A stretch of DNA of 64,000 bases from the NCBI GenBank assembly GCA_921293015.1, contig OV121092.1:33735764-33799763 (forward strand), given 5' to 3'. The notes beneath the pieces are model-generated. The model did not search any database. It saw nothing but the letters and a program-made list of their open reading frames with translations, and was not told the origin of the DNA. The DNA is from Phorcus lineatus (lineage: Eukaryota > Mollusca > Gastropoda > Trochida > Trochidae). Position numbers and translations under genes: made by a program. Shown here piece by piece: positions 25,718 to 63,762 of the stretch (within the stretch, counting starts at the first letter, position 1; each line of letters begins with the position of its first letter).

Positions 25718-26405
25718 CAGACAGACAGACAATTGTTTATTTCAGTCTCACTTCTGTACAGCAACATATTCAAATACATGGTAAATATACAGATAAAAGT
25801 ACAGAACCACTCAATATGAGTTATGAGAGACTATAATACAAATCATTTAAAACATTTTCAGCATTTTGACATAACAAAAGTTTTTCATAATCTGTTAAAA
25901 TATAAGCATTAATACAATGGGACGATATAAAAGTAAACAGATTATCTCTAACATCGGTATATATATCACAGTGAAACAATACATGTAGCTCGTCCTCGAC
26001 ACAGTCAATACAATTATAACATTTTCTTTCATTCACAGGTACATTTTCATAACGCCCAGTTTCAATTCTTATTTGGGCTACACCGCATCTAAACTTGGCC
26101 ATTGCAGAGCGATAACATCTGGGCATATTAGATGTAACATATAATTCAGGATAAAATTCATGTTTTAAAAGTCTGTAAGTTCTTAACTTATTTGAGCCAT
26201 TTCGTCCCTCCTCCTTGTTTAAAAGACATTTCCAATTTATAATATACTCCTCCATAGCTTTACTTTCAACTTCTGTACAGATAGTTCTCTTATCTAAAAT
26301 AAAAACCGGGTCTAGAACGTAGGACATACCAAGAGCGTGAAACTTACTCCTTACTCTAAAATTCCAGTTTCTTATATTCAATACAGGTATATCAAAACCT
26401 AGATA
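25718..26405 (-). pseudogene. LINE 3' fragment: ORF2 C-terminus and tail
   Basis: The minus-strand frame from about 26403 to 25821 encodes some 190 residues: GFDIPVLNIRNW, then GSNKLRTYRLLKHEF, MAKFRCGVAQIRIETGRYE, KCYNCIDCVEDELHVLFHCD and a terminal stop. The Cys-x2-Cys...H...C pattern after ETGRY is the putative zinc-binding C-terminus shared with the LINE at 62140-63762. The 3' UTR ends in ACAATTGTCTGTCTGTCTGT at 25732-25719, a short tetranucleotide tail. The element is 5'-truncated (stops appear upstream of 26403) but the C-terminal frame is still open, so the insertion is fairly young. Confidence 0.8.
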
Positions 26406-27066
26406 TGGGATACTTTCTCATAGTTGGATGTCCCATCTAAATACGGGTTTTGTCCCATGATGATTTCAGCTTCTTTTTAATCAACAATAAACTCAATAGA
26501 GAATTTTATATTGTCCTCCGAATTTCAAATAATCATATAAAGAATTATGATATTCTAGTTAGATTACTGATACATTTACTATGGTTGTAGTAAGGTTTCA
26601 AACCATCCGAATCACAGCAACTAATTTAAGATGAAATTTCGAATTAATCAATGACTATTCATTTTTATTATTATACACTTTGACAAAAACAACATATTTT
26701 CGACGAAGTTCGATAATCAAAATTATCATTCAATGAAATATTTTGTAAAAAGTACTCGCTTTATTGATTTACTCATTATTTTATCATTTAAATATGAATC
26801 CGCATGCATGGTGATTTTGAAATTTAATCATTCGGAAATATGTGTATTAGTATGACATTTCGAAATATTTTTCTCCGTTTCGCGTGTCCACTGCTGACGA
26901 CGATTTTACATGAATGAATTGTTAAGTTCATTTTAAAGAGGGTAGTAGCGAGTGATTACACCTTAAAGAGAATAAGCGTTCCATTTGCAGTACAATTTTT
27001 TTTAATCGAAAGAAGCAGTTCTAAAACGAACGTAACATGTAACACGTATTAATTTACCAACCTCAA
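26406..27066. other. Intergenic DNA, no gene seen
   Basis: AT-rich sequence upstream of the truncated LINE. Nothing recognised. Confidence 0.45.
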
Positions 27067-27068
27067 AT

Positions 27069-27265
27069 TATTAAAAGGTGTTCGCATAAAAATGGCCACC
27101 AGTGGTTTTAGCTTGATATATGATAATTTCTTCAACGACAACCCGATTAAAAATGAGATGTTTGACCCTCTGAAAAAAATATATTTGACATAAACTATTG
27201 TTTATTGGAATAAATGGAATGAAATAAAATTTTCAAAAAAACGTTTTACTGCCCCTTTAAAATGT
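27069..27265. repeat. TTAAAGG-ended short element (copy 2 of family)
   Basis: It starts TTAAAAGGTGTTCGCATAAA with AATGGCCACCAG, parallel to 1897. It ends ACTGCCCCTTTAA, so the two ends are short inverted repeats bounded by TTAA. At about 195 bp it is a compact derivative of the family at 1897, 49618 and 56786. Confidence 0.5.
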
Positions 27266-28318
27266 CTTTTTTAGCCAACCTCGTTAGTTTCTTGTTGATC
27301 TCCACAGAGTTTTGAAGTCTTCCGTATACTCGCACTGTGTAAATGAAATATTCCATTGAAAGAATAACCGCATCGCTGATTGGACTGAATGTAATAGCGT
27401 AGTTGCTGACAGATCGCACCCCCTGAAACATACGTAAAATCATTCATAGTAATTTTGGTAAATAAGTATAGTAAATGTGCAGTAAATGCAATAACAAACC
27501 AGGTCAAATGAACTTTAAAATATCCAAATTCTATAAGGAAATTTTCCGAAAAAAGACAATGTTTTAAATATAGGATATTTATAGAACACAATTTAAAGAT
27601 TACAATATAAAGGTGAGCGATGGAATTTTCATCAAGTAATCATGATACAAAAGTAAAAATTGTAAACATATCATATACTGATATCGAGTATCCATGTCAA
27701 TCAGGGTACATTTATTCACGAGTATTCTACAATACCCTGGTTTCCTTCAATAGATTTCCCTCCTGACCATTTGCCATAGTTGTTGATCTCATGAAGTCGT
27801 TAAACAATACTACCATCCCGGTTCTGCCAATGTTGACTTTTAATCAAATCTGAGGCAGGACATGAAAAGCATGAAATAACGTCTCGAACCTGTATATTTC
27901 AAATACCTCTTCACCATATTACGACGATTACACCTCATTACCACATCGCCTGAGCTGAAAGATATACAATTTTAGACCGTATCATAACGAAGGTTTTTTG
28001 GTCAAATCAATGTCATAATAATTTATTCATAGTCTACAAATTAGATAAAACATAAGTCGCCCCAACCCCTCAATATCACTTTCGCCCAACCAGTCAAATA
28101 ATTGTAATTATAATTAGTAGATGGTTCGTAGAAATGACAAATAATGATGGCTCACCACCACCATTCAGAAAGTACACATAGCACTAACACGTTATCATGG
28201 ACCAGCCTTGAAGTGTCGGAATGGGGAACAGAGGGATGAGAGGGCGTTTGAAATGAGTTTTATGTTTAATAGATTGCACTTTTGTAATTTCAAACCTGTC
28301 AACTTTCAATACAATAAT
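27266..28318. other. 3' flank of the C1GALT1-like gene
   Basis: No separate gene is recognised. On the minus strand an ATTAAA (plus TTTAAT at 28265-28270) lies about 50 bases after the stop codon at 28319 and could serve as the polyadenylation signal of the C1GALT1-like gene. A 106-codon frame at 27271-27591 has no motif. Confidence 0.4.
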
Positions 28319-29028
28319 TCAATGTAACGTTTGACACTTCATAAATTTACGACAGATTCTCACTTGGCTTGTCATGTTGTCGTAAGGGTCAAGGTCATGG
28401 AACCAGCTTTGGTAGTCATGTACCGCGATGGATTCCACGGAAATACCATGAAACCGACTGCGACCTTCAATATCTGTGGAATCGCCGAACTCGATACCAA
28501 GTGAGTTGAAACATTCGCCGATGTGCATTGACTCGGGTATATCTCGTAACCCGCACATCGGATCCTCGGATCCAAACTGTCCAAATATCTTTAACGCCTG
28601 TCTACTGAATACATAACCTCCAAATCCGAAAGGAAACAGCGTGTCCTTGTCTCGTAGCTTTTGGCCGAAATATATTGGATGGTTGGAATCTTCGTCCCTC
28701 AGAAAATATCGAAGATTTTCAAGAACAACGAACGTCATTGGATGAAGGCGGAGAAACCACTGGGCACCCTCTACATGATGTCGATGTAAATAGGAAAGGG
28801 CGTCAAGGGATGCCTTGGCGTCCTCCTCTATGTTGGTTGAGGTGTTCGAGTTCAAAACGACAGTTTCATCGTCTACTGCCTTATCGGAGAACAGAAGCAG
28901 ACGTGAACAACGTTTCCCCCATGTCTGCTTATAGACTTGTCTTTTGGCGGGAACGTTTGACGCTGGGACAAGGACATAACATAGGACTGTTACTGTTCTT
29001 TTAAGGTGATCTGCTTCCGCTAATTTAT
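28319..29028 (-). CDS. C1GALT1/COSMC-family protein, exon 2 (terminal)
   Basis: Second exon of a two-exon gene of the core-1 beta-1,3-galactosyltransferase family (GT31), acting in or chaperoning mucin-type O-glycan extension in the Golgi/ER. The acceptor TTTAATTTTCAG ends at 29029. Joined in phase 1 to exon 1 (ending 32028) it gives one 300-residue frame, against about 363 in vertebrate C1GALT1 and 318 in COSMC. Family blocks in order: VTVLCYVLVP (77-86), VYKQTWGKRC (96-105), WFLR (155-158), VVLENLRYF (165-173), IYFGQKL (183-189), GGYVFSRQALKIF (201-213), GECF (235-238), GDSTD (246-250), GRSRFH (253-258). The metal-binding acidic triplet expected after WFLKA reads HPM (160-162), and the ED of the later EDxxLG block reads ES (230-231). 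Catalysis is therefore unlikely. A COSMC-like chaperone or a degenerating paralog is my inference. The frame is otherwise open and spliceable. Confidence 0.82.
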
Positions 29029-29374
29029 CTGAAAATTAAAAAAAGTAATGTTTAAATGCTTTGAGTGGTGATTTTCTCCAATTTGCATAATGAAGCAGGT
29101 TTCACAACAGACCATACTCTGAATTAGGTTATTGATTTGTATTAGCGTTCCTTTTATATTTTCACATGTATAGGTGGATCAATTTCTTAATAAAACTCTC
29201 AGAGCTGCCTGTTATCTATTGGTTGTGTTTTCACGTGAATATTTGAAACAGAGGTAAAGAAGAATAAAGTTTGCTTTAAAAGTTAACCCTTTTTCTTAAT
29301 CTGCTACTACCCCCACCGAATAGAGCGGAACATTTCGTTTGCTTGAGATTGATCTTTCGCTTTAAAAATAACAT

Positions 29375-29800
29375 TGAGAAATGGAGCCACTCATCGGTGC
29401 TACGACTGTGAAAAGCCTTGCTAACGTAACAAGTCATTGCCAATTTTTCTTATCGTTGTTTGATTGTAAATTTGTGGATGATGTCACAATACACGTATCT
29501 TATCCTTGTTAGTAAAATTAACAGATGTACAGCTGGATTTGTTTTGGGTTTGTTTTTTTCTCAATATAATGCCAAAAACCAACAAGCCGACTTTATTCGT
29601 TCTATGCCGTTCTTTAAATAATAAGCCATTGCTGCATTGTTTAAGATGGCATTTTTAAACGAGGTTTAAATTAGAGTTTACACCAGTAAAGTGGCGTTAC
29701 GTTAAGAGGTACCCAAATGGTGCACCTCATAGCACAGGATGGCACTTTTCGACAAGGTTAAAATTTAAGTTAACACCGGTAGAGCGGTGTTACGTGAAGC
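29375..29800 (+). repeat. Dispersed repeat module with internal duplication
   Basis: The left part (CACTCATCGGTGCTACGACT, AACAAGTCATTGCCAATTTT) matches 51575-51660. The right part holds two diverged copies about 104 bp apart of 'ATGGCA(T/C)TTTT...GAC/GAGGTT...TTTACACC.GTA.AG.GG.GTTACGT.AAG', at about 29646-29706 and 29740-29800. The latter also matches 51690-51740 ('AAACTTAGCACAAGTAAAGC'). Confidence 0.5.
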
Positions 29801-30837
29801 AAATATCAGGATGCGGTTCAATACAAGCTGTCGCATTTTGAACAGGGGAACACAACAAATTTGTCGATATCAATTTTATGTTGGCGATAAAGCATTCCCG
29901 TGCCTTCAACATGATTGTTTGCTTCCAAATACGCATTTCACTGACGTCAGTCATGATTACCATATCTGCTCTCTACCGATTTTACTTATCAGTTAATCGA
30001 TGTTGTTTATTCGGCGCAAGAATAGTTTCCTAACGTTAAAGATTATATTTCTACAGAGTACCATGAAAATTATTTAGGACGGAACTAAAATATTTTAATA
30101 ACCTCGTAATTATAGATTATACAGAATTTCGGTGTATTTCTTAACTGACATTTTATGTCAGTGTGTAAAATAAGTGTAAAATTTATAATACTTTATCAAT
30201 CATATTTTTAGTTTTCGTCCTAATTAACCACAATCCGTTGATCATTTACCAAGACAAAAATATTATTTCTTTTGTGAATGTTATTAAGTTTGAAATTGCT
30301 TATTAACACATAGTTGATTTTCTTCTCTATTTTCCAATTTTACATACTCTTTCAAGTTTTTTCAAGTACTTTTTAAATTTTATACTGGAAATTATTTTTC
30401 AACGGAATCATGATATTTTTTTAATGAGGAAATTGAAATCGATTTAGTAAAACATTTTAATATGATAACCTTCTTGTCGGTTTTCCTCACAAATACGATA
30501 TACAAATAAGAATATCATATTTCATATTGTATCGATCTCAATCCTATAGATCACTTTAGCCATGCTCCACCGGCTACTGGAAAGCTGATTTTACATCGAA
30601 AACTTATTAATTGGTCCGTCAAAAAATTAAAGGAAACCAATTATACTTTACAGTTATAAAAAAAATCGGCATGAAAATCTAAAGAAACAATAACCTAGTT
30701 CGATAAATATACCATTTATTTAACATTTACGTAAACAGACATAAACTACAATTCTAAAAGGACTACAAAGAAAATCTAAAAACTTGTTCGGACTAGAAAT
30801 ACCGATACAATTTCCGCCTTTTAATACCGGGCGGTTT

Positions 30838-31250
30838 TGCATTTCTTTACAACCTCTGTCTTAATTCAAAGGTTTCTTGTGCACGAAATATAGAACGCTG
30901 ATTCGATGCAATCAAAGTTAGTTGTGCAATCAGCGACGCCGTTTCAAAAGTTATCATTCGAATCTTTCTGTAAGCTTCCCAAAAGCTAAACTATATTCGA
31001 GTCGAGTCGTCTTTACAGAACACAAACGCCTCATTTTCCGACTGTTTCATTGCACAGGCCTGTCTGACATCAAATATGCTATACATGCATTCGTTGTTTT
31101 CATTGGCTGAAAAATAGCCAGGTAGTTTAAGTTGCAATATTGTCCCGCTAGGGGAAAGTGCCAGAAGATCGAGAAACCTTCGCATGAAGACAGAGGTTGT
31201 ATAGAAATGTATGACGGAGATACCTCTGTTGGGAGTGAATGGCTGTTTTG
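30838..31250 (-). mobile_element. ACAACCTCTGTC element, copy B (both ends)
   Basis: Inverted ends are visible: CATTTCTTTACAACCTCTGT with CTTAATTCAAAGGTTTC on the left (30838-30875), and GAAACCTTCGCATGAAGACA with GAGGTTGTATAGAAATG on the right (about 31172-31208). One side extends further as GACGGAGATACCTCTGTTGG and GAGTGAATGGC, equal to the leading part of copies A, C and D. The interior is the reverse of 38250-38520. There is no coding capacity. It is a MITE-like element lying inside the C1GALT1-like intron. Confidence 0.8.
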
Positions 31251-32027
31251 ATGCCGTCAAGTAGAATTGTAAAATACGCCACAGACGAAAAAATACGAGA
31301 TGTCGCGTCAAACAAGAATTGCTAGGCAATATCGATATCTGTACATGTGCACATATGAAAAATATGTCACTGTGTTGTGTATAGTGAGAGATTATGCTGT
31401 AAGGGAAGAAAACATTGAACCCCTTCTTACCGAAATGAGTAAACTTTTACTTCAGTGCTTGACATAAATAAGTGCATTATACAGTAGTACACAAAATATG
31501 TTGTACAATTATACTTAACCAATCTGTGTATGAAGTAAATGGTCATTTACTTGTCAATCAATTTGATGTATACCTTTCTTTTTTACCAGTTTTTAAACAA
31601 TTTATATATACTTCTACCGCTCGGTTATATTAACTGCTGTCATATAAGCAACAATCTATTTCAGCAGCCTTAAACTCAAATCACTACAACCAAAATAAAC
31701 AAAATTGAGCAAACGTTTCGTAAACCAATTGAACTCAAAACGATTTTTATAAGTACCTCATATATACCGGTTTTAAATGAAAAATCGTAGCATGTAAATC
31801 AATAATAAGGCCATAACATGGATTTACAAAAATGAAAATGTTTCTGATCAAGCTTAGCATTAAAAAGGACATGTAAGTAACTCAATTTCTCATTAGCAGT
31901 CAAATACATGTATGTATATATATACGCAATGCTTTGCAATCAGAAGAAAGCACATCTTTATAAAATTATAATAATTAATAATTTTATAAATTGCATTAAT
32001 TAAGATATGTAACCGTCTCTCACTTAC

Positions 32028-32220
32028 CTCTATCCAGTCCTCTTTCAATCACGAAATTCTGCCGTGCTTTCTTGTACTCTCCCCCCCGGGCTCTGCTCAG
32101 CATCCGTTCAGGACCCACAGAGCGAGGTCCTGTGAGTAAAAAAGAAACCAGGACCCCTAAACAGATACCCCCTATCAAATACTGAACAGTGACAGCGTGT
32201 TGACGACGCCATTTTGTCAT
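32028..32220 (-). CDS. C1GALT1/COSMC-family protein, exon 1
   Basis: First coding exon: 64 codons plus one base. It starts MTKWRRQHAVTVQYLIGG, a short basic cytosolic tail followed by one hydrophobic segment (about residues 9-31), the layout of a type II signal anchor used by Golgi glycosyltransferases and COSMC. The stem follows (RSVGPERMLSRARGGEYKKA), then ERGLDR. The donor AGAG|GTAAGTG leaves one base, and with the first two bases of exon 2 it makes the Asp of 'GLDR-D-KLAEAD', so the frame is continuous. The start is the first ATG after stops in the minus frame. The 5' UTR and promoter lie beyond 32220, but no TATA box was assigned. Confidence 0.8.
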
Positions 32221-33186: not shown

Positions 33187-33322
33187 ATATATAATATAAT
33201 ATAATATAATATAATATAATATAATATAATATAATATAATATAATATAATATAATATAATATAATATAATATAATATAATGTAATATAATATAATATAAT
33301 ATAATATAATATAATATATATA
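33187..33322. repeat. (TAATA)n microsatellite, about 27 units
   Basis: An almost pure run of the pentanucleotide ATAAT, with one interruption (GTAAT at 33281). It ends a few bases before the first LINE-like codons, so it abuts the 5' truncation point of the LINE at 33330. Confidence 0.95.
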
Positions 33323-33329
33323 AATAATG

Positions 33330-35045
33330 TATGCCCAGAAGTGTGGAGTAAAAGTATTATCTTCCAAGTCAAAATGGCGGATACAGATCCAACTGATCCT
33401 CTTGGTTATCGTGGCATATCTTTATTATCCATTCCCTGTAAGGTTTATTCTGATATCTTAAACGTAAGGTTCACTAAATGGTTCGAATATAATGATCTTC
33501 TGGCAGAGGAGCAAAACATCTTTCGTAGCAAGCGTAGTACAGTTGAACACATAAATAGTTTGTATAATGTTATTAATAACATGAAGGCTGTGAATCGTTC
33601 AACTTTTATCTGTTACATTGATGCTTTGAAGGCGTTTGATACAGTTAATAGAAATTGTCTATGGTATAAACTTTTAAAGTTTGGTGTAATTATTTTGCAG
33701 TAAGGTCCTAGTATGATGATAATAAGTCTTATTGGGTATTTTACAGATACTTTCTCAGTCAGTAGTGGTGTAAAGCAAGGCTGCGTGTTGTCACCAACTT
33801 TATTTTCTGTATATATTAATGATTTGGTTGAAGAAATTAACAATTTAGGATGTGCCATTGACCTGGACGGACGGATGGTTAGTTTACTTTTATATGCAGA
33901 TGACATTGCTCTGCTTGCTGTTGACGAAAATTCATTACAGCGTATGCCTACTGTGTTTCTTCCTGGTGCAGAAAATGGCGCCTAAAAATTAACAGTAACA
34001 AATCTAAAGTTGTTCACTACAGACCCAATTCTACAGCCAAATCACGTTTGGATTTCACTTGTGTCTCTGAAACAACTGAAATAAAAATGCATACTTGTGT
34101 ATTTGGTTACATGTAGACCTGAATTTAATTTTTCAGCCAAGGAAATTGCCAAGTCAGGAAGCAGAGCATTAAGTGTAATCATCAGTAACTTTAAGGCAGT
34201 TGGAGGAATATCCTATGTTTTACACTCATTGTATGATAACCTTGTGCAACCTATTGTATCTAATGGTTCAGCTATCTGGGGGTTAAAGAATTTAGATGTA
34301 TAAACATTGTTCAAAACAGGGCCAGTCGTTTCTTCCTTGGTGTGGGCAATAAGACTGCTAATCTTGCAGTTCGAGGCGAAATGGGATGGCTGTCCTGTAT
34401 CTCCAAACAACAAATTGAAATTATCCACTTTTGGAGGAAATTAAATATGGCTGAACCATCAAGACTGACAAGTTGTATTAAAACCTGGTCGTTAAAATTT
34501 AGAAAGCCCTGGGATAATTTAGTTTTAAGTTTCATTAGAAAAGTTAATTCTCCAATTCATAATGTGTTATCTGTTACCCATAGGGAGTTTCTCACAATTA
34601 GAGAGAAGGTAATTAGCATAGATCAGGAAAACTGGTTACGTGGCCTATGGAATGATGATAGACAGACTAATGGTAATAAGCTTAGAACATTTAGATTGTT
34701 TAAAAACACTTTGAAAGTTTCACCTTATGTTCGCTCAGTTTCTGACCGCTCTCAGCGAAGCATTCTAGCCAAACTAAATCAACGTATATGTAAATATTTC
34801 CTCTGAAGTAGAGGATGAGACACACTTTTTAACTACATGTGATTTTTATTCTGATGCCAGATTATATCTTTATGGTTAAAAGTCCAAGCTATTGATAGTC
34901 AATTGATTAATATGTCACCAACAGACCAAGTCATTTTTCTCATGTATTCTCCCCAACTCTCCCAACCACTTGCCGCTACAACAAGCACTATGTTTAGACG
35001 CAGAAGAAATGCCACCATTTAATTCAAACAGGGTTTTCATGAATT
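33330..35045 (+). pseudogene. LINE ORF2 (RT domain to C-terminus), broken
   Basis: A 5'-truncated non-LTR retrotransposon. Reading through frameshifts and stops gives, in order: GYRGISLLSIPCKVYS; EEQNIFRSKRSTVEHI; YIDALKAFDTVNR (RT motif with catalytic Asp); SSGVKQGCVLSPTLFSVYIN; LLYADDIALLA (YADD box); KSGSRALSVIISNFKAVGG; GSAIWGLKNLD; NRASRFFLGV; VRGEMGWLSCISKQQIEI; NKLRTFRLFK; then VEDETHFLTTCDFYSDAR and FRRRRNATI ending near 35022. The downstream TATATATATAT is the probable tail. The RT core is split by a stop at about 33703 and shifts near 33990, 34100 and 34300. The class is uncertain. It is the same broad family as 62140-63762. Confidence 0.85.
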
Positions 35046-40689: not shown

Positions 40690-41153
40690 TCAAAACATAG
40701 TGTCCTTTCCATAGTAAATAAACCTAAATATTTCTCCAAGGGTGGTGTTGAGTTTCGTAATTTCATCCGGGTTTTCAGGCACATGACCATGCCGATGCCA
40801 TATATGAATAGCATATTGTCTCCTCCAATCATATCCTGTCTGCTTCAACAGCTTTTTAGATTCAAACCAGTTGGGTCTGTAGATCTTAGATCCAATTTCG
40901 TTGACAGAGGTCCTGTTCTTGAACCAGAGTCGCTGTGCAGCGAAGAGAGAGTTTTCAAAATTTTTGGAACCTGTGTAATTGAGATAGCCTCGGTACCACT
41001 CCTTGACGAACCCCGAGTCCCTTTCAGATACTATGAAGGCGTTTCCCATCCCAGTGGCGTTGTCGATGTAGCCCATGCTGAGAGGGGCGTCCAAGAGGGC
41101 GTCTATTGGGTTCAGCACCAGCATATCCGTGTCCATGTAGATACCGCCATTCA
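40690..41153 (-). CDS. DXD glycosyltransferase (Gly_transf_sug/GT32-like), exon 2
   Basis: Terminal exon. The acceptor TGCCTTTTCCAG ends at 41154. The first two bases complete a Val codon begun in exon 1, giving 'TLI-V-NGGIYMDTDMLVL'. The DTD (residues 207-209) is the DXD nucleotide-sugar/metal site, preceded by the GGIY typical of the Gly_transf_sug domain. The rest (PIDALLDAPLSMGYIDNATG, NAFIVSERDSGFVKEWY, AIHIWHRHGHV, stop after GKDTMF) fits the C-terminal half of that domain. The full protein is 353 residues, a normal length for small type II Golgi enzymes of this group. The sugar donor and acceptor cannot be told. The group is large in invertebrates and includes alpha-1,4-GlcNAc/Gal-transferase relatives. 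The frame is intact and the catalytic motif is present. A plus-strand frame at 40651-41211 is its shadow. Confidence 0.87.
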
Positions 41154-42240
41154 CTGGAAAAGGCATTGTATTATTATGGTCAACTTACAGATGATATTCT
41201 GGAAAAAATAAGTAATGGATACGGGGGTTTGAATGTAAATGTAAAAGGCAAGATACATCGTTATTTATAATTTCAAAATTACAAATAAACGGAACTAAAT
41301 TGTTCAGAGAGAGTCACATCTTAATGATGTTTATTCTTAAATATCTCGCATTTCCCAAAAAATTTCTAAAAAGCTCTATACAGAGATTAACTCATCTGCA
41401 TAGCGGCAAGTGTCTACGAGTGCACACTACATTCAATTCATTTAAAATGTTTAGAAATGTTACCACCGAAACTACAGCTTTATATACCAATCTCTCAAAT
41501 AGTTGATACATTAAAAATACATTGCAAAATTATGAAGATTCTATCTTTTGGTAACTTTTTCTTTTCATAGCAAGTTGTAAGGCTCGTTTCATAGGGTTCT
41601 AACAAGAGTGCTCTGGGAGCAATACTCATCTCTTAATTGTACGGACATACTGCTGCTTGATTGTTTGCCTACAAAATTGGGTATTCTGTGAGGTATAATA
41701 TATTTCAAAACATTGGAATGCAATTAAGAAGAGATTGCCTGTGATTATTTTGAGCTCATTATGAATTCATCGGAAGTGTCGATTGACAAGGAATATACCA
41801 AGGTCATTAATGTTTTTGACGTTAGGGATACGTATGTAAAGTAAAGACCTTTGACTTACCAATCAAAGCTTGATTAAGGTTAAATTATTCAGAAAATAAT
41901 CGCTAGGGCAGGATTAAGTTAGGAAGATTAGATATGTCTTAAACAAATCATTTATCCAAGCTTTAGAACAGCCCCTGATAGAGTGCGTCCGAGTCAAATA
42001 TTCAAAAACTTTTATTCCTCGGAACATGGTCGATTTTCATCAGACTGAGTTTCAGAACTTATGAAGCACGTGTTTGAAGCAAGGGTCAAAGTTTAAGCTT
42101 TTAAAAAAAGGTTCATAGTAGTATATGACACACTGTGCAAGTGGGCGAAAAAGTCACGTGAATGCAACTGTGAATGTAATACATTTGTTAACTGATATTT
42201 GTTTGTTTCGCAACATCTATAATACGCTTTATAAACTTAC
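41154..42240 (-). other. Intron of the GT32-like gene (1,087 bp)
   Basis: Donor ATCG|GTAAGTTT at 42240 and acceptor TTTTCCAG at 41154 on the minus strand. AT-rich, with no element recognised. Confidence 0.78.
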
Positions 42241-42838
42241 CGATCAGAGTCTGCAGACGCACGATGTCACTCGCATGTTCAATGAATTGCAACGTGTTTG
42301 ACGTCATCACCGGAAATGGTCGGTAAACGTATCTGACACCAGCGATGTCGCTCAGCACGCGACTCCACCAATAGCCGCACGGTGTTGAGTCGGATATGAC
42401 GTATATCGCCCAGGGTGCTATGAACTTTCTAGCACTGAGAATGCTTAGGTAGTGTAAGAAAAGAAACGCTGGTGGTTTTCCAGGGGAAGGAGAAAATATG
42501 ACATAATACACTATACGAGGTACAATCTTTTCACGATTAGGCAGAATGCAATTGTCTTTGAATCTTAGGCCATTTTGACGACAGAACTGTCTACACATGA
42601 CGTCACTGTTTTTCCAATCTTTGTCACAGACGTCCCGGAAGTCTACTGTAGGTTCAACATGGCGTAAGAAGTCGTTCAGGCGGACACATGGTAAAGGTTC
42701 ATGCATTCTCGATGGGGTCGGGGTTCGAATTCTTAGAATTTGTTTTCCGTACATTGACCATGCAGGTATGTATAAAAACCAAATAAGGACCATTGATAAA
42801 AGTAGGTAATAAACATACAAACTGTATTGGATATGCAT
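42241..42838 (-). CDS. DXD glycosyltransferase (Gly_transf_sug/GT32-like), exon 1
   Basis: First coding exon: 199 codons plus one base. The chosen start (42838) gives MHIQYSLYVYYLLLSMVLIW, a short tail and one hydrophobic segment (about residues 8-27), i.e. a type II signal anchor. An in-frame ATG at 42916 would add 26 residues without a better anchor. A Cys-containing stem follows (Cys at 51, 71, 82, 86, 97), then VPRIVYYVIFSPSPG (106-120), FLFLHYLSILSARKFI (125-140), IYVISDSTPCGYWWSRVL (145-162) and FIEHASDIVRLQTLI (185-199). IPRIVHYVW, HxxSDIxRxxxL and the following GGIYxDTD form the canonical order of the family. It lies about 9.8 kb upstream, in minus-strand terms, of the C1GALT1-like gene on the same strand. 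Confidence 0.87.
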
Positions 42839-45800
42839 GATCAGTGTTAGTAATTTAAGTTCGACAAATAATAGGTTGTTATAGGTGGAATGATGTATGT
42901 TCAAGTTTCCAATCATGTTAATTTCATCGAATATACATTCTCTCCCGTGAACAGAAATCTAATGATATAGTGGGCAATAGCACACAGTACAAACTAGAGA
43001 CAGTTAGCATCCTTGCCATGTGTTGGTGCTATATTCTGAACAAGTCGACACGGCACATAGCTACAAAATTAACACTTCGAATCAGAACGAGAGTTCTGTT
43101 CAGGTCTATAGTGTCCTGATTTAAAGCTCGGAAAGAAGCACTCAGAAATTCATTGACATATATCAGTTTCCTTCGAAATCGCCAGTCCTCATAAGGAAAC
43201 ACCAGTCAGCTGTCCGTTCAAATGAAATCAGGATTCCAAGTGTGGCAACATGTTAAAGTCCAGTCAAATCAGCGACACTCATTTAAATTTCCTGGAAAGT
43301 CTACGAAAAGCGGCACATGAAGATGCCGTTTGAATCCTATTCATCAATTATGTTCCATTCTGTTACGGTCGTTCACTATTTGAAACCGTCCATACCGACT
43401 TTTTCATCAGTAGTTGGACTTCAGTTAGCTTCTTGAGATCAAAGATCAACTTCTCTCAAACTTAACTATTGACATGTTGTACAAAGCCACGTCGTTTATT
43501 CATTCGCATAAACCATTGAAACATGTAATGCGGACCCCCTTAGGACTCTCAACACCAGCTGTCGTTCCTTGTTTAATTCCTTTAGGTAAATACGGCGAAT
43601 TATAATGCAAACAAATCCTCACTTAACAAAGATGGATTAAATTGGTCAGAAATTGTGCTTATTCCACAGCGGACGATCAAATTACTCTTTTTACAATTCA
43701 TGTAAATCGCCCATTTTGGCATTTAATAAAGCTTCTGAAACTCATTAAACTAAATCTAACGATATTCAAGATTTTAAAAAACAAGCAAATTTTCTTCAGA
43801 AAATAATTATTTAATTATTTCAGCGAGTTTCTGAAATTTCTTCACTTACGTTCGTTACGCCAAGTTAATTCTGCATGCTTGGCGTCACGGATGAATGTGC
43901 TTCAAGTCACTGCAGTAGGTCGGATCTTGCTTCGTTATTTCAACTTTTATACCCACATTGCCGATTTTTTTAAAGTCAAGACGTTTGACTGTGTGTTTAA
44001 ATGAGTAACAGTTAGGCCTTATCTGTTATTCGGATAAGTATATGCTTTGTTTAAATGTTTGAGTGAAGATGATATTGGTTATTCGAGTTCCTCATATATG
44101 TCACATAATGTGAAGAGGTTAATTGTTTAATTGTATGTGTAAATCAGTTATTAGTTATACGATACGAATCCTGTGCTGCACAAGTTATGAGTTATTCGAA
44201 TATATTTTTTTAAGAAAAGGATAGGTTTAGTATCTTGATAACGTCTGAATACATTTTAAGTTAAAAAAGTATACGGCGCTATTGATCTCCAGTAGGCCTA
44301 CCTGTGTTTGATATTATGGATCTGTCACCGAATGGTGATGTTCGGTAGGAATAACAAAGTGTGGAAGTTACCAACAGACAAGTTTATTTACAATAGTTAT
44401 ATTTACAAATGTTCTACATGTTCAATATAGGATTCTGTTGACAAAGCTAACCTTTTCTAACACAGTGTATTTCACTCATGTCTAACGCTCTTCTAATTAA
44501 GTCCCTTTTGTTAATGTTTCTAACAGAATATTCTAATATATTTTAACGTGTTCATTTAAAGAAAGGTTTGAGCTAACTAGCGTTACCAAGCATAAGCATG
44601 TAAATTTCAAAATCCAAAATGGCGGTATTTGTGTTTTCCGCGAAGCAGGTTACGCTTTGGCGATACATTTTTTGGATAAGAACATGTTGTAAATTATGAG
44701 ACAACACAAATAAAACAAAAATCGTGTAATCTGCTTACCAGGCGAAATCACGTCTTTTAAGGAACTGGCGCACGTCAATATTTCGAAGACATAAATAATG
44801 TACAGATAATTTCTCCCTATTACTAACTATCTATATATAATAACTATATATATATATATATATATATGGTATAAGATATTCAGAACATGTGTACATATTC
44901 AGGTTATAAAGCAAAATTTAAAAGTCTGGAAACATTTAATGCAATCTTGCCTGGAAATACAAATTGAAGAATTTATTGAATATGGTTATATATTAATCAT
45001 AAAATCATAAACAGCTCTTTTCAAAGAAAAAATCGTATTTAAGTATACATATAAGATAATCTTCTGTGTTCTGTGACAAACATAGATCGACTAGTACCAA
45101 CCGTTGATGAAAACCCGAGTGCAAAATACGTATCTTTTAAATAAGCCTAGAATGACCAACTTACAAATAGCGAGCTGTTCACAAGTGTATGTGTGTACGT
45201 TTATCTATTAATGAATTTTTCATATTTTCCCATTCTTCGATATATCATAGTCTGCTGTCATGTATAAATACTAGTATTTGCTAGACTAAACTAATACTAA
45301 ATCTCTGAGAATTAGTTATCAAAAAAATGTATGTTATCAAATAAAAGAAGGGAGCATCGTAAAAAAATTAGCATATCAATAAAACCAAACTCTAAACTTG
45401 CTTTTCAAGTTCAAAATATTATTTACTGCAGTACAAAGATGTGTTTGAAGCTAAACCGAAAATTCAACATGTGAGGTCCTTTTCGTTGAGACGCACTGAA
45501 GTCGGAAAAGAGTATTATACGGCGCTTCGTCAGCGTAAAATTTCTCTCTGGAAATACTATTGAATCTTATCATAATTTTAGTTTAAAAGCAAGTTTAAAA
45601 CTTTTAACCTTATGCATTTAACAGGGACGTTTATTATAGTTACATGCCAGTTAGATAGTGAACACATGTAACATTGTAAAATGTTGGATCACACCTTTCG
45701 GATTCTAACCCACACCCTTATAATCAAGCAACAAGGACGGTCAACAAGCGAGAGTTATGCTGTATATAGTTGCATTCATTATCCTTCAGATGGATGTGAA

Positions 45801-62139: not shown

Positions 62140-63762
62140 TTAAAGGGTAAAATATTCAATACTATCAAAACTCTGTATGAAAATAATTCATGTACTGTGA
62201 GAGTAAATGACTTTATGACACAATTTTTCTCTGTAAAAAGAGGAGTAAAACAAGGATGCGTACTATAGCCAACATTGTTCTCACTGTATATCAACGACTT
62301 AGCGGAGGAGATTCAGGGAAGTGAAAATGGTGTATGGAATGGATAGACAATATAAGTGTTGCTATTTTGCTTTACGCTGATGATATCGTTTTGATGGCGC
62401 CAAGTGAGACCAAACTGCAACAGATGTTAAATTTGGTATCCGAATGGTGCTCGAAATAGAGACTTTCAATAAACAAAGAAAAAACAAAAATTATTCATTT
62501 TAGAAATAGAAAGGTGCCCTTAACAAATTTTGACTTTTATTGTGGTGAAGCCGAGTTGGCCCATGCTACATCGTATAAATATCTCGGAATGTGGTTCGAG
62601 GAACATTTAGATATGAAGTATACTGTTCTAGAAATATCTAAAAGTGCAAACAGAGCTCTCTCTGTACTTACTACAAAATATCATCAATGTGGAGGTATGG
62701 CTTACGATGTTTTTACCAAGCTATTTGAAACTACTGTTGAACCTGTTCTCATGTATGGAGCACCTATCTGGGGACTTTCATCACAACGCCTAATTCACAA
62801 AATACAAAATAGAGCTTGCAGATTTTTCTTAGGAGTTCAACGGAATACTCCGAATGTTGCTGTGCAAGGAGAAATGGGATGGATATCATGCTTCACGAAA
62901 CAAAGGATAGCCGCAGTTCGTGCTTACATTAGACTTGACAGAACTGACAGCTCAAGATTGCCTAAGCAACTATTTGATTGGTCAAAACGCCGAAAAAAAT
63001 CATTTGTATTCAGGGATTGGGAAAGACACCCTGGACAATGGGCCATTTTTAGGGCTTTTAGTCATTTCCAGAATTTTTAATGGGCCATTCCCCATAGTAG
63101 CAATGGTAAAATTACTGATTTGAATGGGCCATTTTTTCATCCAATGTGCAAAATGGCCCATGGCCCTGCCTTTCCCAATCCCTGGTATGTAACGTTGAAA
63201 AGATGTGCAGACGGACAAATATTTTTAATTTACTCCATGCTCCTGGATCAGTTAATAACGTGATGTATGCTCTAAAGAAGAAACTAAGACAGCAGGTTAA
63301 GATGGAATGGTTTACAGAATTATGGAATGACAAGAATACAGAAAATGGAAATAAACTAAGAACATATAGACTATACAAGAAAGACCTAAAAACAGAAACT
63401 TATATTAGATGTATTACATCTCGACAAAAAAGAAAGACATTAAGTCGATTTAGATGTGGCTCCCTACCTCTGCATATTGAAACTGGACGTTTTTGTAAAC
63501 CCCCTACACCTATTCACTTGAGAACCTGCCCCTTTTGCGGAAGCGTTGAAAACGAAATACATTTCTTGTATGAATGCGATTTTTATAATGATTTAACATA
63601 CGAGTATTCAACTTAGTTCCTGAATTAAAAGATAGACCTATGAATGATGTTAATTACGTATTATGTAATATATTGAGCATTCATAACCCTGAGTTTATCA
63701 AAGTACTAGCTTATAGCATAACAAAAATGTTTTATGGACTCATTCTATTTACAAATGGGTAA
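62140..63762 (+). pseudogene. LINE ORF2 (RT to C-terminus), interrupted by a MITE
   Basis: A 5'-truncated non-LTR retrotransposon. In order: KIFNTIKTLYENNSC; VKRGVKQGCVL, a stop, PTLFSLYINDLAEEI; LLYADDIVLMAPSETKLQQM (frameshifted); LSINKEKTKIIHFRNRKVPL; ATSYKYLGMWFEEHLDMKY; SANRALSVLTTKYHQCGGM; VLMYGAPIWGLSS; KIQNRACRFFLGVQRNTPNV; QGEMGWISCFTKQRIAAV; then the 174-bp MITE (63011-63184); NVEKMCRRTNIF; ENGNKLRTYRLYKKDLKTE; FRCGSLPLHIETGRF; RTCPFCGSVENEIHFLYECD; FIKVLAYSITKMFYGLI and a stop at about 63762. The Cys-x2-Cys...His...Cys end matches the fragment at 25718-26405. Besides the MITE, it carries a stop in the RT core (about 62267), a TAG at about 62458 and a shift near 63600. Confidence 0.88.
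63011..63184 (+). mobile_element. 174-bp MITE, CAGGGATTGGGAAAG ends, inside LINE
   Basis: Inverted ends CAGGGATTGGGAAAG and CTTTCCCAATCCCTG are exact reverse complements. The flanks read GTAT(T) on the left (63006-63010) and GTAT(G) on the right (63185-63189), a 4-5 bp target duplication. Removing the insert plus one GTAT restores the LINE frame across the junction (SFV then CNVEK). The interior has no coding capacity and contains GGGCCATTTTT/ATGGGCCATTTTTTCATCC motifs. The CAGGG start suggests a hAT-like origin, but the short duplication makes the superfamily uncertain. Confidence 0.9.

Follow-up and report, generated by a model that had tools for sequence, protein, structure and literature searches.

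The window analysed here, a stretch of 64,000 nucleotides (nt) from the gastropod Phorcus lineatus (assembly GCA_921293015.1, contig OV121092.1, positions 33,735,764 to 33,799,763), carries on its reverse strand a locus that, as its sequence reads, is a complete three-exon gene for a 344-residue type II membrane protein of the C1GALT1 branch of glycosyltransferase family GT31. The predicted product, presumably located in the endoplasmic reticulum (ER) or the Golgi, keeps most of the conserved scaffold of its family and only one of the conserved catalytic positions, and we regard it as very probably a pseudoenzyme. Membership of the C1GALT1 family, already proposed in a preliminary description of this DNA, lies far beyond chance, with exon 2 matching Drosophila C1GalT1 (7q4i) at E=4.7e-29 in phmmer and at 33% identity and the full model at E=2.2e-34, and the family blocks listed there (TWGKRC, WFL, ENLRYF, GGYVFS and GDSTD) are all present.

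Exon 1 (32220-32028), the start of exon 2 at 29028, the phase-1 intron between them with its GTAAGT..TTTTCAG borders and the open frame were confirmed as first described. The C-terminus of that two-exon model, a protein of 300 residues ending at 28319, proved wrong; instead, exon 2 ends in a phase-0 donor at 28363 that connects to a third exon. This architecture recurs in paralogs found elsewhere in the genome: a phase-1 acceptor 35-50 nt before the conserved xVLC block was among the two best-ranked candidates in 20 of 26 paralog loci (38 nt in the window gene, a hand count, as the script found no anchor there), a phase-0 donor candidate closes exon 2 in 16 of the 26, at which point the window gene reads CAA followed by GTGAGA, and in 17 a short third exon could be located that carries the CCSD and FHY region. 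A hidden Markov model (HMM) built from these 17 exon-3 pieces, searched against 3874 open reading frames (ORFs) drawn from the window, the flanking L030 and the region (L028) of the paralog L014, gave one clear match, 941 nt downstream and in the correct strand and phase (E=2.4e-7; runner-up 0.027). With this exon included, the match to 7q4i scored 122.6 instead of 104.9 bits and the alignment extended to chain residue 281; therefore, the last 14 residues of the 300-residue model (VRICRKFMKCQTLH) are intron read-through. Codon composition supports the reading frame in exons 2 and 3 (+60.9 and +9.4 bits, and -3.2 bits for the 14-residue tail), and both introns have usable splice sites in the phases seen in the paralogs. 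The exon 1 candidate is the nearer of two that combine an ATG, a hydrophobic stretch and a phase-1 GTRAG donor in the 35 kb scanned upstream. Coordinates are collected in Table 1.

Table 1. Features of the window gene, in window coordinates
Feature	Position	Strand	Basis
Exon 1 (ATG, short basic tail, hydrophobic stretch, stem)	32028..32220	-	splice-site and frame reading
Hydrophobic stretch in exon 1, likely transmembrane helix	32187-32134	-	sequence
Intron 1, phase 1, GTAAGT..TTTTCAG, 2999 nt	29029..32027	-	splice sites
Exon 2, most of the GT-A domain	28364..29028	-	homology to 7q4i and paralog donors
HPM codons (CAT CCA ATG) at the DxD position (Drosophila D181-D183)	28736..28744	-	alignment
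ES codons at the xED position; Drosophila catalytic base D255 replaced by S	28529..28534	-	alignment
Intron 2, phase 0, GTGAGA..TTTCAG; contains the false stop at 28319 of the 300-residue model	27423..28363	-	
Exon 3, 58 codons and stop; SVSN for CCSD, TFSP for TFHY; C-terminal helix MEYFIYTVRVYG kept	27246..27422	-	HMM, E=2.4e-7
FSP codons at the metal-ligand C-His position (Drosophila H324, Y325)	27381..27389	-	alignment
AATAAA, possible polyadenylation signal, 40 nt beyond the stop	27201..27206	-	motif only

The contrast between scaffold and active site was quantified in a 30-row alignment, in which 41 columns showed conservation of 90% or more across 25 DDD-bearing paralogs together with human and Drosophila C1GALT1, a column being counted only if at least 16 of these 27 sequences had letters there. 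The human sequences of C1GALT1 and of Cosmc (C1GALT1C1), the vertebrate ER chaperone related to it, were checked solely by length and published residue numbers. The window gene retains one of the 12 conserved catalytic or ligand columns, E239 (human numbering), versus 22 of the 29 other conserved columns (Fisher p=1e-4). Lost are the uridine contacts R140, L143 and K146, the N-acetylgalactosamine (GalNAc) contacts Y206 and S208, and D169-D171, D240, H309 and Y310, whereas the scaffold columns kept include W111, several glycines and C91, C115, C232 and C246, four cysteines that presumably form two of the three family disulfides. Human Cosmc gives a like contrast, with 3 of the 12 and 21 of the 29 columns.

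In terms of motifs, DDD has become HPM (DxD), ED has become ES (xED base), TFHY has become TFSP (C-His) and CCSD has become SVSN. The HPM triplet (28744-28736) and the ES pair (28534-28529) had been recognized at the outset and hold in the alignment; the losses at C-His, CCSD and the contacts to uridine diphosphate (UDP) and GalNAc had been missed. The residue roles follow the structure paper on Drosophila C1GalT1 (PMC9065035), which reports the D255A mutant as fully inactive and names four GT-A landmarks; the window gene is without three of them (DxD, xED and C-His), and the fourth, the glycine-rich loop GGAG, reads GFGG in our own mapping. Compared with C1GALT1 (T-synthase; EC 2.4.1.122; 7q4i), then, the window protein is alike in catalytic-domain homology, N-terminal hydrophobic stretch, four cysteines and C-terminal helix, but the DxD, the xED base, the C-His, the CCSD and the uridine and most GalNAc contacts are replaced. 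On this residue mapping the protein is predicted to be incapable of the galactosyl transfer carried out by its relatives, and the retention of a scaffold from which the active site is gone is the mark of a pseudoenzyme.

An open frame is hard to reconcile with passive decay. Starting from GAY, the four acidic codons require at least 1, 3, 3 and 3 changes to become CAT, CCA, ATG and TCA, that is, changes at 10 or more of 12 nucleotides, which under neutrality takes a divergence (d) of about 1 or more, where about 18 stops are expected. In a neutral simulation that assumed GAY as ancestral codons, ignored indels and left selection on the catalytic codons themselves outside the model, the open fraction was 1.5% at d=0.1, and at d>=0.2 no copy out of 400 remained open. 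The window gene can be spliced and has no break in its 344 codons even though its branch is long (1.19 amino acid substitutions per site), and it bears none of the signs of a processed or decayed pseudogene that were looked for along these codons (stops, frameshifts, lost splice sites or introns). Neutral or recent pseudogene decay was thus rejected on three grounds together, the at least 10 of 12 changes, the open frame and the contrast of 1/12 with 22/29, so that the early remark that the open frame speaks against simple decay was upheld, and the reading as a dead member of the C1GALT1 family whose frame is intact has good support.

The window gene belongs to a large family. A search of the 958-Mb genome with exon 2, in which 30 candidates were scored and which therefore sets a lower bound, gave at least 27 matches, the window gene and at least 26 paralogs at about 23-37% identity. 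Among the matches listed, 25 paralogs carry DDD and one, L014, does not. Situated near 43.69 Mb on contig C19, the same contig as the window gene and about 10 Mb from it, L014 is a second dead paralog and yields, read as three exons, an open frame of 333 residues; in it EAV replaces DDD, LG replaces ED and MT replaces HY, and it keeps 0 of 12 catalytic versus 16 of 29 other conserved columns. Its losses at H309 and Y310 are less sure, because its exon 3 alone gave a non-significant HMM match (E=3.2) and its first donor is not strict. L014 and the window gene share LGIxFGD and KL[RK]xKD stretches but differ in their replacement residues; sisterhood of the two is allowed, not proven. An origin of the window gene as a local tandem copy was also considered and rejected, as six family queries found no other match within about 224 kb around it.

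Other members of the family deserve mention in their own right. L009 (G000:C19:43047358-43047978), a tandem C1GALT1-family copy and likely a young pseudogene, is the opposite of the window gene: one in-frame TGA breaks its exon 2, while DDD and ED are intact, the look of a recently broken copy. L007 (G000:C19:32717484-32718071), which shares its contig with the window gene at a distance of about 1 Mb, groups with Drosophila C1GalT1, has CCSD and is likely the core-1 enzyme of this genome. Six DDD-bearing paralogs (L002, L004, L005, L006, L009 and L010) are without CCSD in exon 3, reading xxISD, or SMSD in L010, with FHY kept; L010 also has GD in place of ED. They resemble the active Pomacea enzyme, which has TMSD according to PMC11005171, so that CCSD is not required.

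What, then, might a dead member of such a family do? We consider it somewhat probable that the window gene encodes a constrained pseudo-glycosyltransferase that serves C1GALT1-family enzymes as a partner or chaperone without catalysis of its own and functionally resembles Cosmc; for the partner or chaperone step taken by itself, which is argued by analogy, we see the balance as even. The conservation contrast and the open frame show that the fold-defining residues were retained and those for donor, metal, base and acceptor abandoned, for which selection for a non-catalytic role is the simplest cause. With its GT-A scaffold and C-terminal helix the protein may bind, within the secretory pathway, one or several DDD-bearing paralogs and may assist their folding, dimerisation or retention, which is what Cosmc does for vertebrate C1GALT1. 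A partner role appears to be the best explanation because a membrane-anchored, dead GT-A scaffold coexists with some two dozen DDD-bearing paralogs. By analogy it is plausible that the protein works like Cosmc: PMC9065035 describes an obligate dimer for C1GALT1 and names its DxD-less relative Cosmc as its ER chaperone, Cosmc is stated to have lost the DxD and to be catalytically inactive (PMC7185993), and the N-terminal domain of Cosmc alone, which holds the region of glycosyltransferase homology, is reported to have wild-type chaperone activity in vitro (PMC5493369).

Several observations weigh against this proposal. Chaperone-independent activity is reported for the T-synthases of molluscs, nematodes and insects (PMC11005171), and since the invertebrate enzymes studied work chaperone-free, the need of a client is not evident. 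The dimer-interface tyrosine (human Y321) is Y in the window gene, which says little, the active-type paralogs being variable at this position. The model is least certain in exon 1, where another frame has the higher codon score (24.0 versus 17.8 bits). The Pfam Fringe scores, 19.8 bits for exon 2 and 18.1 for the full protein, fall below the cut-off of 21 bits; among the paralogs, the active-type L007 and L002 reach 53 and 62 bits and the dead L014 12 bits. Single-sequence structure prediction of exon 2 alone gave a mean predicted local distance difference test (pLDDT) score of only 32.5, so that the fold is assigned from sequence. Finally, the paralogs listed are at most about 35-37% identical, and synonymous sites are therefore expected to be saturated for the ratio of nonsynonymous to synonymous substitution rates (dN/dS).

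A closer relation to vertebrate Cosmc would be that of a true ortholog, implying that the chaperone predates the protostome-deuterostome split and survives here. The two are alike in being C1GALT1-like proteins with the scaffold kept and without DxD and C-His; in human Cosmc the former DDD reads RPT, with proline in the middle as in HPM, and the C-His is also absent. A maximum likelihood (ML) tree of 26 of the 30 rows (L009, a near-copy with a stop, and the incomplete L025, L026 and L027 omitted) places the window gene, L014 and Cosmc outside the rest, which group apart from them with a Shimodaira-Hasegawa-like approximate likelihood ratio test (SH-aLRT) value of 86.8 and an ultrafast bootstrap (UFBoot) value of 76; the window gene and L014 are further set apart from the rest plus Cosmc (SH-aLRT 75.1, UFBoot 88). 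All three are long branches, and in the 18 rows from which the active-site columns had been removed the support for setting the three apart dropped to 32, with 36 for L014 plus Cosmc, so that long-branch attraction likely lies behind the three-way separation. Topologies were compared on 18 of the 30 rows, with and without the active-site columns and with Cosmc represented by one human sequence. None of eight constrained topologies fell below p=0.05 in the approximately unbiased (AU) test in either data set. When all columns were used, the topology that makes the window gene and Cosmc sisters ranked last by p (0.09), although it trailed the best by just 2.5 log units, and without the active-site columns its p was 0.215; the window gene and L014 as sisters had 0.69 and 0.55, respectively.

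Identity of the window gene to human Cosmc is 24.6%, versus up to 33.5% to active-type paralogs. Further differences lie in the missing CCSD and in the xED column, where human Cosmc has ED in our own alignment and the window gene, without the Asp, has ES, although PMC7185993 states that Cosmc lost the xED. Cosmc also has a single coding exon (PMC6097208) versus three here. On these grounds, and with sisterhood neither supported nor rejected by the trees, we leave the gene unassigned to Cosmc, and orthology strikes us as improbable. The literature points both ways: two papers on molluscan T-synthases state that a Cosmc homolog could not be detected in their molluscs or has not been found in known invertebrate genomes (PMC11005171, PMC9865085), and a flatworm survey by reciprocal BLAST reports a C1GALT1C1 ortholog together with 13 C1GALT1 paralogs (PMC6076252). 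The oyster protein Cg1 (XP_011437048.2) is likewise a mollusc C1GALT1 paralog, for which core-1 activity was undetected on expression (PMC11005171); its inactivity is of a different kind, because the conserved motifs are present according to the same source. We found no description of DxD-less (dead) C1GALT1 paralogs in molluscs in the open-licence literature on C1GALT1 and its mollusc or oyster expansion, most of it consulted as listings, and no open-licence paper that treats pseudoenzymes, glycosyltransferases and Cosmc together.

Equally improbable, in our judgement, is a secretory-pathway protein that binds glycans or peptides in a lectin-like manner and has nothing to do with C1GALT1 chaperoning. 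The membrane-anchored scaffold and the tryptophan kept at Drosophila W300, a GalNAc/peptide contact, would suit such a role, but the other GalNAc-binding positions are replaced (Y218F, S220F and Y304L, Drosophila numbering), which makes ancestral acceptor binding an unlikely feature to have been preserved. A young or unexpressed pseudogene whose frame is open by chance seems slightly less credible still: the family does contain a likely pseudogene copy in L009, but the catalytic codons of the window gene differ at so many nucleotides in a frame that is nevertheless open, with 22 of 29 scaffold columns retained and both introns bearing usable splice sites in the family phase. The least probable reading, a glycosyltransferase of changed chemistry (metal-independent, or with another donor or acceptor), can point to inverting GT-A families without DxD that work metal-free through basic side chains (PMC7185993), but here the residue at the base position has gone together with the C-His and the contacts to uridine and GalNAc, and inspection of the sequence reveals no obvious replacement base.

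Returning to the non-catalytic partner of C1GALT1-family enzymes, we tentatively extend it to the lineage, a claim that we hold to be possible but rather doubtful: animals said in print to lack Cosmc may possess dead-enzyme helpers of their own within an expanded C1GALT1 family, at least two in number (the window gene and L014) and under selection, either as an independent reinvention of Cosmc or as the trace of a chaperone older than the vertebrates. If constrained dead C1GALT1 paralogs exist in such animals, when and how often a glycosyltransferase became the helper of its own family turns into a testable question, for which the material would be one common scaffold, two or three losses and a genome whose two dozen or so DDD-bearing paralogs are possible clients.

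Scans of viral contigs, genome contigs and phages gave no relative, as expected for an animal gene. Upstream of the window gene, two ORFs at 40690-42958 (-), one of which matches the Gly_transf_sug DXD domain at a score marginally below the Pfam threshold (E=1.7e-4), are perhaps a second, unrelated glycosyltransferase gene, the joining of the two being a guess. Additionally, a fragment resembling a long interspersed nuclear element (LINE) lies at 33305-34806 (+), with a reverse transcriptase domain at 33305 (PF00078, E=1.4e-9), and further LINE-like pieces, named by look only and without Pfam support, lie at 25821-26417 (-) and 62460-63616 (+).

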